A DNA stretch of 64,000 bases from Caldalkalibacillus uzonensis (GTDB lineage: Bacteria > Bacillota > Bacilli > Caldalkalibacillales > Caldalkalibacillaceae): NCBI RefSeq assembly GCF_030814135.1, contig NZ_JAUSUQ010000001.1:124001-188000 (forward strand), written 5' to 3'. Shown here piece by piece: positions 24,184-29,520 of this stretch; the first letter of the stretch is position 1, and every line of letters starts with the position of its first letter. A program made the translations under genes and the position numbers. The notes beneath the pieces were generated by a model. The model saw only the letters and a program-made list of their open reading frames with translations. It searched no databases and had not been told where the DNA came from.

Positions 24184-24813
24184 TTAGTGAATATGGCGAA
24201 AAACCCCGATTACTTTACCCAAGATGGTCACGTCTTTAAGGATGATGGGCTCCAGTGCAGCGTTTTCCGGCTGTAGGCGGATCACATTTTTCTCTTTGAA
24301 AAACCGTTTTACAGTAGCCTCATCTTCCTCAGTCATAGCCACGACAATATCGCCGTTGTCAGCATAATTTTGTTTGCGGACAATGACATAGTCCCGGTCA
24401 TAGATACCCGCTTCAATCATACTGTCACCCTGGACAACGAGCATAAACAACTCACTGGGGTCAGTGGCAAATTTATCTGGCAGTGGAAAATATTCTTCAA
24501 TATTTTCCACTGCTGTGATGGGTTGTCCCGCTGTGACTTTCCCGATCACCGGCACATAAGTGGTGCTAATCGATTCGGGTTGAGGCTGGGTGCGCATGTC
24601 ATCGTCCAAAACTTCAATGGCTCTGGGTTTGGTGGGATTACGGCGTATATATCCCTTTTTCTCGAGCCGGGACAAGTGACCATGGACAGTAGAGCTGGAA
24701 GCCAATCCTACTGCTTCACCGATTTCACGGACTGATGGAGGATACCCTTTTTCCCGCACTTCCTTTTTAATAAAATCCAGGATCAGCTTTTGGCGTTTGG
24801 ATAATGTGGACAT
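24184..24813 (-). CDS. lexA: SOS repressor LexA
   Basis: A 209-residue protein. The winged HTH is at about residues 1-65 ([20 protein letters not shown]). The Ala-Gly self-cleavage site is in GKVTAGQP (about 92), the catalytic Ser in [12 protein letters not shown] (about 128) and the Lys in EATVKRFF (about 166). ATG 24813 has AGGTGA at the right distance; an upstream TTG is also in frame. It is divergent from ynzC. The division inhibitor yneA, which normally sits in this divergent position in Bacillus, is not present here. A LexA box overlaps its promoter. Confidence 0.96.
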
Positions 24814-24904
24814 CAATTTTCACCTCAATACCAAGAAATAAAATGCACACAAGAAAACTGGACGAATGAAGATGGTAAGTTTTAACTATGTATACTTATG
24901 AGAT

Positions 24905-24944
24905 ATTATATCAAATGTAAGGGACGAATACAAACGTAAGTTCG
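24905..24944 (-). promoter_or_regulatory. lexA promoter with overlapping LexA box
   Basis: On the minus strand: CGAACTTACGTTTG (24944-24931) matches the Bacillus SOS box with one half-site mismatch. It overlaps TTGTAT (-35, 24933-24928), followed by a 17-bp spacer and TATAAT (24910-24905). This is a standard autoregulated lexA arrangement. Confidence 0.78.
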
Positions 24945-25026: not shown

Positions 25027-25263
25027 ATGCTATCCAAGGCAAAACTAGACCGGATTAACCAGTTGGCACAAAAAGCAAAGCAAAAAGGGCTAACAGCAGA
25101 GGAGAAGGAAGAGCAAGCTCAGCTGCGCCAAGAATATATCCAGTCCTTCCGTTCTTCATTCAAAAGTAATTTAATGGGTTTAAAAGTGATTGACCCAACA
25201 GGAAGAGATGTAACACCAGATAAGTTGAAAAAAGAACAACAGAGATATAAAAAACAACATTAA
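25027..25263 (+). CDS. ynzC: DUF896 family protein YnzC
   Basis: A 78-residue, highly charged, helical protein with the DUF896 pattern AEEKEEQAQLRQEYIQSFR (about residues 25-43) and VIDPTGRDVTPDKLK near the end. In Bacillus subtilis it is encoded beside lexA-yneA-yneB. Here the two genes between lexA and ynzC are missing. The function is unknown; the fold is a two-helix hairpin. AAAGGGGATCGAT precedes ATG 25027. Confidence 0.9.
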   Translation: MLSKAKLDRINQLAQKAKQKGLTAEEKEEQAQLRQEYIQSFRSSFKSNLMGLKVIDPTGRDVTPDKLKKEQQRYKKQH

Positions 25264-27675: not shown

Positions 27676-28494
27676 TCAAGCATGTGAGGAATTATTTAGA
27701 GCAAGATGGTTAATAGAGCCAACATATTGATTCAACTTAAATCCTTGACGGATAGCCAGTGTAATGTATTTTTTGGCTTGATGCACAGCTACCTTAACAG
27801 AAGCTCCTTTAGCCAGCTCAGCAGCAATGATGGCTGCAAATGTACAACCGGCGCCGTGAGTATATGCCGTATCCACCCGGTCCCACTCCAAAAGTTCAAA
27901 AGACTGGCCATCATACAAAAGATCAACTGCCTTATCATTTTTTAATTTTCCGCCTTTGATGACTACGTAACGGGGGCCTAATTGATGAATGATTGTTGCT
28001 GCCTCTTTCATATCATCGATGGAATTAATAGCAGGGCGTTGGCTCAACTGTGCGGCCTCAAACAAATTAGGCGTAACAACGGTTGCTTTTGGCACAAGCA
28101 CGTCCCTTAAACTGGCAGCAGCGTCAGGATTAACAGGTTCGTCAGCCCCTTTACATACCATTACTGGATCAACAACAACACGGTCAAGTTGATGACGGTC
28201 AATAGTTTCAGCGACCAGTTCGATGATTTCAGAGGTCGGCAGCATACCTGTTTTTACAGCATCAACACCAATGCCGGAAAGCACCGTGTTTAGTTGTGCT
28301 TGCACTGTTTCTGCGGGAAGAGGGTAGACAGCATGGAACCAATTGCGGTCAGGGTCCTGTGCCACGATTGTGGTCAGTGCTGTCAAACCGTATACGTAGC
28401 GGGACTGAAAAGCTTTAAGATCGGCTTGGATGCCTGCTCCTCCACTCGTATCTGAGCCAGCGATGGTCAAGGCTTTATACACTTTCGTGTCCAT
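27676..28494 (-). CDS. thiD: Hydroxymethylpyrimidine/phosphomethylpyrimidine kinase
   Basis: A 272-residue ribokinase-fold enzyme that phosphorylates HMP and HMP-P in thiamine synthesis (some homologues act on pyridoxine). TIAGSDTSGGAGIQADLKAF is near residues 9-28, and the catalytic/anion-hole segment YTHGAGCTFAAIIAAELAKG is near 212-231. ATG 28494 is chosen since AAAGGAGA is 7-8 bases upstream; a TTG 24 bases earlier is less likely. The preceding YdjM-like gene starts about 110 bases downstream on the same strand. No TPP riboswitch is visible upstream. Confidence 0.92.
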   Translation of the reverse strand: MDTKVYKALTIAGSDTSGGAGIQADLKAFQSRYVYGLTALTTIVAQDPDRNWFHAVYPLPAETVQAQLNTVLSGIGVDAVKTGMLPTSEIIELVAETIDRHQLDRVVVDPVMVCKGADEPVNPDAAASLRDVLVPKATVVTPNLFEAAQLSQRPAINSIDDMKEAATIIHQLGPRYVVIKGGKLKNDKAVDLLYDGQSFELLEWDRVDTAYTHGAGCTFAAIIAAELAKGASVKVAVHQAKKYITLAIRQGFKLNQYVGSINHLALNNSSHA

Positions 28495-28618
28495 ACTTTC
28501 ATCTCCTTTAGTATCCAAACTCTAGCATCATTATTATTTTAACATTGGACTATCCGTGTTTCGACCATTGTTTGTAATGGAGAAGAGGAATGGACGGGGA
28601 GGAGGGGGATTTTATGTT

Positions 28619-28705
28619 TTATTCGGAAACCGTCTCCCCCTTAAAAATGAAACTGAGAATTGTTAACGCCACCAACCAGAGTGAGAAACTAAGCAACCCT
28701 TCCAT
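28619..28705 (-). CDS. Candidate SOS-induced micro-membrane-peptide, 28 residues
   Basis: The minus-strand ORF MEGLLSFSLWLVALTILSFI... (28 residues, ending KGETVSE) is one hydrophobic helix (residues 4-21) with a short charged tail. It lies 30-70 bases downstream of three LexA boxes and a TATAAT. A strong GAGGAGG (28727-28721) is 7 bases from ATG 28713, which is in another frame (16 codons), and 15 from ATG 28705. One extra G in the GGG at 28699-28697 would fuse the two into a 31-residue peptide with ideal spacing. Size, topology and control resemble the SOS peptides SidA of Caulobacter and TisB of E. coli; no sequence homology is claimed. Confidence 0.45.
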   Translation of the reverse strand: MEGLLSFSLWLVALTILSFIFKGETVSE

Positions 28706-28734
28706 TCAATCATTGAATTTCCTCCTCACTAAAC

Positions 28735-28784
28735 AAAACGTATGTTCCAGGAATATATGTTCCAGAACGTTTGTTCTTATTATA
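28735..28784 (-). promoter_or_regulatory. Triple LexA-box promoter for the micro-peptide
   Basis: Three SOS-box-like palindromes lie 14-15 bp apart: AAAC-GTAT-GTTC (28736-28747), GAAT-ATAT-GTTC (28751-28762) and GAAC-GTTT-GTTC (28765-28776). The last is a full match to GAAC-N4-GTTC; the others have one mismatch. A minus-strand TATAAT at 28784-28779 places the start of transcription inside the third box. The arrangement predicts tight LexA repression of the minus-strand transcript. Confidence 0.72.
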
Positions 28785-28879
28785 CAAAAAGCATAGGAAA
28801 AAGGAAAGAGAAAATTAAATATTAATACTCAAATTTTTAACTGGAGATACTCTATACAAAACCAAAAAGTTGGAAAGGA

Positions 28880-29488
28880 TAATGGTCGTTTATGAAACAC
28901 ATTTGAAGTATGTAATCGCCGCAGTTACTATACGGAAGGGGGCACAGGCGAAATTCTGTTCTCCCACTACGGTGATATTTCCCTTATACCTGTAATGAAA
29001 CAGGTTGGGCCGGTGCTCAGGTTTCTGCCCTCACTTTGGCTCCGGATGAAAAATATCAGGCGGGAACAGTGATTGTAGATGTCTATCCGGATGTAAACAT
29101 ATTGAACTTTGCTCATACATCAAAACAAGAAACACGCCAGATTATTTCTGTTGTGTGACGAGCATGATAAAAACTTGATTAAAGTTTAAGGAGAGATTCC
29201 GCTTGGTGCCCCTGCTTATAGAGCCAGAGTGAGTGTGGAGGATCCAACTTGTTATGCTCAGTTAACATCTTATTAAAAATTAAAAGAAATTGGCAGTTGG
29301 TAAAAGTACACGTTAAAACCGGGGCGTTAACAACAAAATCATCTCTATCTGGATATGTGACAACCCGAGATGATCACTGGCTGATTTTCTCAATAATTAT
29401 GATCAATAACTTTACAGGAGACTCATCCGAAATGAAACAAATTGAAGATCAAATCGTATTGCGCCTAGCTGAATTTAGCTTAGAATAA
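28880..29488 (+). pseudogene. Remnant of an S13 D-Ala-D-Ala carboxypeptidase/endopeptidase (PBP4/DacB type)
   Basis: Translated pieces in shifting frames match the C-terminal half of DacB-type enzymes. First QVSALTLAPDEKYQAGTVIV (about 29010-29070), then EIPLGAPAYRARVSVEDPT (about 29190-29255), then VHVKTGALTTKSSLSGYVTT (from about 29300; KTG is the third penicillin-binding motif) running to the end of the 29249-29488 frame. The Ser-x-x-Lys nucleophile region is gone and there are several stops and shifts. A peptidoglycan hydrolase gene was lost here by deletion and drift. Confidence 0.75.
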
Positions 29489-29520
29489 AAAAACTGAAGT
29501 TAGATTGGACCAATAGCATA

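Follow-up and report, generated by a model that had tools for sequence, protein, structure and literature searches.

The window analysed here is a stretch of 64,000 nt from Caldalkalibacillus uzonensis. A preliminary description had placed on its minus strand a promoter overlapped by three SOS boxes, one perfect and two with one mismatch, followed by a GAGGAGG ribosome binding site (RBS) and a short hydrophobic ORF, and all of these elements were found where they had been reported (Table 1). The ORF had also been described as the only thing immediately downstream. It does follow the boxes, but a pyridoxine/HMP kinase gene begins approximately 124 bp beyond it, and no terminator was detected between the two. 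A promoter-like site of the kinase's own is present in the gap, at 28564-28536, and the kinase probably lies outside the SOS peptide system. On the plus strand, 28850-29490 carries what is left of a decayed D-Ala-D-Ala carboxypeptidase gene. Within it, 29249-29485 matches Peptidase_S13 (E value 4e-10), over the end of the profile only, and the DNA before this segment has stops in all three frames.

Table 1. Features of the peptide locus and of the lexA region in the window, and loci of related peptides. Positions are those of the window unless a genome and contig are given. G000, the genome containing the window; G001, a second genome of the genus; G002 and G003, genomes of other genera of the order.
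Feature	Position	Strand	Remarks
lexA	24184-24816	-	Without yneA as divergent neighbour
Single LexA-like site, CAAACGTAAGTTCG	24931-24944	.	Left between lexA and ynzC
ynzC-like gene	25027-25263	+	Follows yneA in relatives; here adjoins lexA
Pyridoxine/HMP kinase gene (pdxK/thiD)	27676-28494	-	Follows the peptide gene; synteny shared with G001
SOS peptide gene, 28 codons in the window (MEGLLSFSLWLVALTILSFIFKGETVSE)	28619-28705	-	Ortholog of G001 L002:1603-1701
RBS-proximal ORF, 16 residues (MIEWKGCLVSHSGWWR)	28663-28713	-	Frame differs from that of the conserved peptide
Ribosome binding site GAGGAGG	28727-28721	-	From sequence; kept in G001
LexA box 3, GAACATACGTTT, one core mismatch	28747-28736	-	Degenerate in G001
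LexA box 2, GAACATATATTC, one core mismatch	28762-28751	-	Identical in G001
LexA box 1, GAACAAACGTTC, perfect core	28776-28765	-	Identical in G001
-10 element TATAAT, preceded by TG	28784-28779	-	From sequence; identical in G001
Related peptide L049	G000:C5:167938-168045
Related peptide L050	G000:C12:74688-74789
Related peptide L051	G002:C8:20307-20414
Related peptide L052	G003:C15:100290-100391
Related peptide L053	G001:C10:44179-44286

A cluster of three boxes within 45 bp, none of them with more than one mismatch, would be expected 0.017 times per shuffled 64-kb window. A strict tandem-pair pattern, GAACNNNNGTTC-N0-30-GAACNNNNNTTC, was found once per genome in G000 (3.9 Mb) and G001, in both cases at the peptide locus, and the same pattern read backwards, as a control, had no matches in either genome. 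The Firmicutes-type SOS operator, GAAC-N4-GTTC, is present at the promoter and is conserved in G001. From the -10 element through box 2, 33 of 34 bases are identical between G000 and G001, whereas the upstream DNA is 60% identical, and the operator is therefore regarded as conserved. Boxes 1 and 2 are kept in G001; box 3 is not, at the one-mismatch level. Elsewhere in G000, single perfect boxes were located at a gene for a Y-family polymerase and in the interval between a YolD-like gene and an SRAP-like one, as judged by reading the translations, which indicates that this type of operator is in use in the genome. Taken together, these comparisons provide good support for the proposed control of the peptide gene by LexA.

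Another perfect pair of LexA boxes, 20 bp apart, was observed in G002 (L160, C12:236197-236240). The pair lies between two genes, downstream of one for a small holin-like membrane protein and just upstream of the other, which is YolD-like.

When 60 related genomes were searched at the DNA level, a single true match to the locus, 77% identical, was obtained, in G001. The promoter, box 1 and box 2 recur there, followed by GAGGAGG, directly by an intact 32-codon ORF (MVEWLEGLLSFSLWLLGLTILSFIFKGEQVSE), and then by the pyridoxine/HMP kinase gene, in the same order as in the window. Over the 84 bases shared in frame, 15 differences were found, 11 of them at third positions; of the codons affected, 10 are changed silently and three with a change of residue. 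When these differences were placed at random in simulations, 9.9 residue changes were expected, and as few as three occurred in 0 of 100,000 trials, a result that refers to one pair of genomes, the two of the genus. The excess at third positions and the small number of residue changes indicate purifying selection on the hydrophobic frame, and the same signal was absent from the other reading frames. Loss of the frame in relatives that keep the boxes had been named in the preliminary description as grounds for discarding the peptide; in G001, which keeps boxes 1 and 2, the frame is conserved, and the one-helix peptide appears to be genuine. A 68-codon ORF on the opposite strand (28590-28796) was rejected as a real gene, having six silent and seven changing codons as compared with 10 and three for the peptide. 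Coding status of the hydrophobic ORF is thus well supported by the pattern of substitution, and the locus very probably represents a LexA-controlled, translated gene of the genus.

The beginning of the window copy requires separate consideration. As had been noted, the ATG favoured by the RBS, at 28713 and 7 nt past GAGGAGG, is out of frame with the hydrophobic peptide; it opens only the 16-residue ORF. The in-frame ATG, at 28705, sits eight bases past the first one and 15 nt past GAGGAGG, and opens the 28-residue ORF that ends at 28619, so that the first four residues of the G001 form are lost. Relative to G001, the window is a net four bases short between the RBS-proximal ATG and a shared GAA codon, and it is this shortfall that puts ATG 28713 out of frame. 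The size of 28 residues previously given stands, while the figure of 31 residues with one base restored does not, the relative having 32 codons and the difference being four bases net. Nor is the length of a G run in 28690-28715 the cause, as had been suspected: the shortfall lies elsewhere, and no change of frame occurs across the G runs. A one-base assembly error in such a run was accordingly rejected, and the earlier choice among frameshift, assembly error and reinitiation narrows to a net four-base difference with an in-frame ATG eight bases on. As the shortfall is outside any homopolymer, it is more likely to be a real allele than an assembly error. The G001 form is probably ancestral, since the W-[LT]-[DE]-G start is shared by related peptides (see below). 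In the window strain, translation would have to begin at the second ATG, and the product would be a peptide four residues shorter, probably made in lower amount.

The out-of-frame ATG could reflect decay in that lineage. The window copy would then be a pseudogene in decay whose counterpart in the sister species still functions, a reading that applies to the window strain only, is compatible with the explanation preferred below for the genus, and is considered rather unlikely. The four-base shortfall at the RBS-proximal start speaks for it; against it, the remaining 27 codons contain no stop and no sign of relaxation in comparison with G001, an in-frame ATG is available 15 nt from the RBS, and box 1, box 2 and the -10 element are all kept. 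That the gene is fully active in the window strain is marginally favoured.

The preliminary description had also reported that yneA is missing beside lexA, and this was confirmed in the window. In the genomes of the other three genera of the order (G002, G003 and G004), yneA is situated between lexA and ynzC, with LexA boxes, and the YneA proteins score above the NF010723 cut-off. Nothing is encoded between lexA and ynzC in G000 and G001, and YneA was found in 0 of these 2 genomes of the genus. A yneA relocated elsewhere in the genus was sought in both and rejected; the matches to NF010723 are confined to frames of at least 300 residues, lie below the cut-off and in several cases have more than one LysM match. 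The peptide gene is 3.8 kb from lexA. Loss of yneA and gain of the peptide may each represent a single evolutionary event, in which case the correlation between them has n=1.

In one genus of the class (g44), a class-wide scan located a tight tandem operator some 40-50 bp ahead of yneA. In another (g20), the same tandem operator precedes a LysM-less, one-helix protein of 77-79 residues. Its gene occupies the yneA position, is read divergently from lexA and has a recombinase-like gene and ynzC behind it (loci L181-L188, e.g. L181:1551-1787; the protein begins MKDTLNGIILVGMLLVGMFAFYLAGEMRG). No family model names this protein, which is probably an analogue of SosA/YneA. The occurrence of yneA in the one genus and of this protein in the other behind the same operator suggests that such an operator, together with a one-helix protein, is a recurring mark of SOS division inhibitors.

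Weaker relatives were recovered when the order was searched with the intact peptide: in G002 (E value 4e-5), at a second locus in G001 (0.001), in G003 (0.002) and at a second locus in G000 (0.003); the weakest match (0.1) came from a phage-like region of G000. The reversed peptide as query gave nothing below an E value of 0.7 in the order. The relatives at L049-L053 are one-helix peptides of 34-40 residues, and peptides P0003-P0007 share, with exceptions, the pattern W-[LT]-[DE]-G-[LI]-L...G-L, with a glycine in the helix. No LexA boxes were found at the loci of the related peptides, which, as judged from translations, adjoin a kapB-like gene (G002 and G003) or spore-protein-like genes. A profile of all seven peptides gave no convincing member outside the order among 399 genomes of the class; a search of named genomes by the peptide pattern gave no homologs, and there was no match of note to the peptide in Pfam, NCBIfam, PHROGs, PADLOC, phages or the PDB. 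The related peptides, too, are absent from the family libraries. Their short length keeps genes of this sort out of annotation, and no family model covers them, which is how they come to be missed. In the genus from which yneA was lost, a LexA operator is likely to have captured one member of the family. The fuller proposal, namely an undescribed, order-restricted family of 32-40-residue one-helix peptides (W-[LT]-[DE]-G-[LI]-L), of which one copy in one genus was captured by a tandem LexA operator at the time of yneA loss and became a bare-helix Gram-positive division inhibitor, is put forward tentatively.

AlphaFold2 predicts a single helix for the G001 ortholog (residues 2-31, mean pLDDT 85), and the best 19-residue Kyte-Doolittle window averages 2.06-2.20. 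On the basis of the predicted helix and the hydropathy, the product is taken to be a single-pass membrane peptide. To judge from the operator, the gene would be kept silent by LexA occupying the tandem boxes, which are placed at the start of transcription. DNA damage would lead to RecA-driven cleavage of LexA and turn the gene on, and the peptide would enter the membrane and delay septation, most likely via helix-helix contact with the late divisome, in the region of FtsW, as SidA does in Caulobacter. It would thereby take the place of YneA in this genus. Induction, membrane insertion, the block to division and FtsW as target are all inferred. A division inhibitor of the size of SidA, unrelated to YneA and standing in for it, is reasonably probable. 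Replacement of YneA had been suggested in the preliminary description and is retained as the best reading. SOS control, a real peptide and the absence of yneA have held up as well, while the likeness to SidA and TisB that was drawn there extends to size and control only. It does speak against a YneA role that the peptide gene is not beside lexA and that the peptide has no extracellular domain.

The main rival to a division inhibitor is an SOS-induced membrane peptide of the TisB/DinQ type, which would lower the proton motive force and slow growth, with effects on persistence or the nucleoid, and would not bind the divisome. DinQ, which like TisB is from Escherichia coli, is a LexA-controlled one-helix peptide of 27 residues (PMC3567139), and the peptide resembles this type in size, in its one helix and in its putative SOS control. 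It differs in that neither an antisense RNA nor a structured, translation-blocking leader, as in type I toxins, was detected at the locus. No antisense promoter-like site or Rfam match was found there, and the RNA fold is unremarkable (z-score 0.12). The short leader and strong RBS are likewise unlike those of type I toxins; two acidic residues precede the helix, which has no cationic face, and the loss of yneA is not accounted for. This alternative is considered unlikely. A milder task under LexA, inherited from the order-specific peptide family (e.g. modulating a transporter, a protease or a sporulation-linked membrane protein), would fit the relatives P0003-P0007, which share the pattern without LexA boxes, other members lying beside kapB-like or spore genes. 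It is quite improbable, in that the peptide locus alone has the genome's only tandem LexA operator, which points to a principal SOS effector. That the boxes serve the downstream kinase, the ORF being merely a leader, is highly improbable: the nearby start and the lack of a detected terminator would allow it, but purifying selection acts on the amino-acid sequence of the peptide, the kinase has a promoter-like site of its own, and among 80 kinase loci in other genomes none had paired boxes upstream or a homolog of the peptide nearby.

The division inhibitors known from the Gram-positive SOS response consist of a one-helix anchor and an outer part. If the interpretation of the peptide as a division inhibitor is correct, a bare 32-residue helix under a YneA-type operator would constitute a natural test of whether a helix by itself can stop the divisome, and an outer domain of the LysM type would be dispensable for the SOS block to division. 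The peptide would also add a further case to the repeated exchange of the protein at this checkpoint (YneA, SosA, the g20 protein and the window peptide).

SidA, SosA and YneA establish small one-helix proteins as a known kind of SOS division inhibitor. No sequence relationship was found between the peptide and any family searched. With YneA of Bacillus and Listeria the peptide shares the tandem LexA operator, the single helix and, as proposed here, the niche that YneA holds in the sister genera. It differs in lacking LysM, in having one third of the length, in its chromosomal place, which is neither divergent from lexA nor before ynzC, and in the absence of detectable sequence similarity, with no NCBIfam (NF010723 included) or Pfam match up to an E value of 10. 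The YneA helix binds FtsW TM7 and the LysM domain blocks synthesis; in B. subtilis, division is not blocked by the helix when LysM is missing (PMC13396833), and a bare-helix peptide therefore cannot work exactly like YneA. SosA of Staphylococcus (approximately 77 aa) is encoded beside lexA and has a conserved membrane-proximal C-terminal part (PMC6851548). SosA and the g20 protein are, like the peptide as proposed here, LysM-less single-helix SOS proteins standing in for YneA; both are encoded next to lexA and carry an extended C-terminal part, of which the peptide, at 28-32 aa and 3.8 kb from lexA, has almost none. SidA of Caulobacter crescentus, a protein of 29 aa, acts on FtsW (PMC4211646). 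It comes from an unrelated phylum, between which and that of the peptide sequence homology would not be expected, and the likeness is one of size and control; in those terms the window peptide matches it as an SOS peptide of about 29 residues, with one hydrophobic helix, hardly any tails and putative control by LexA.
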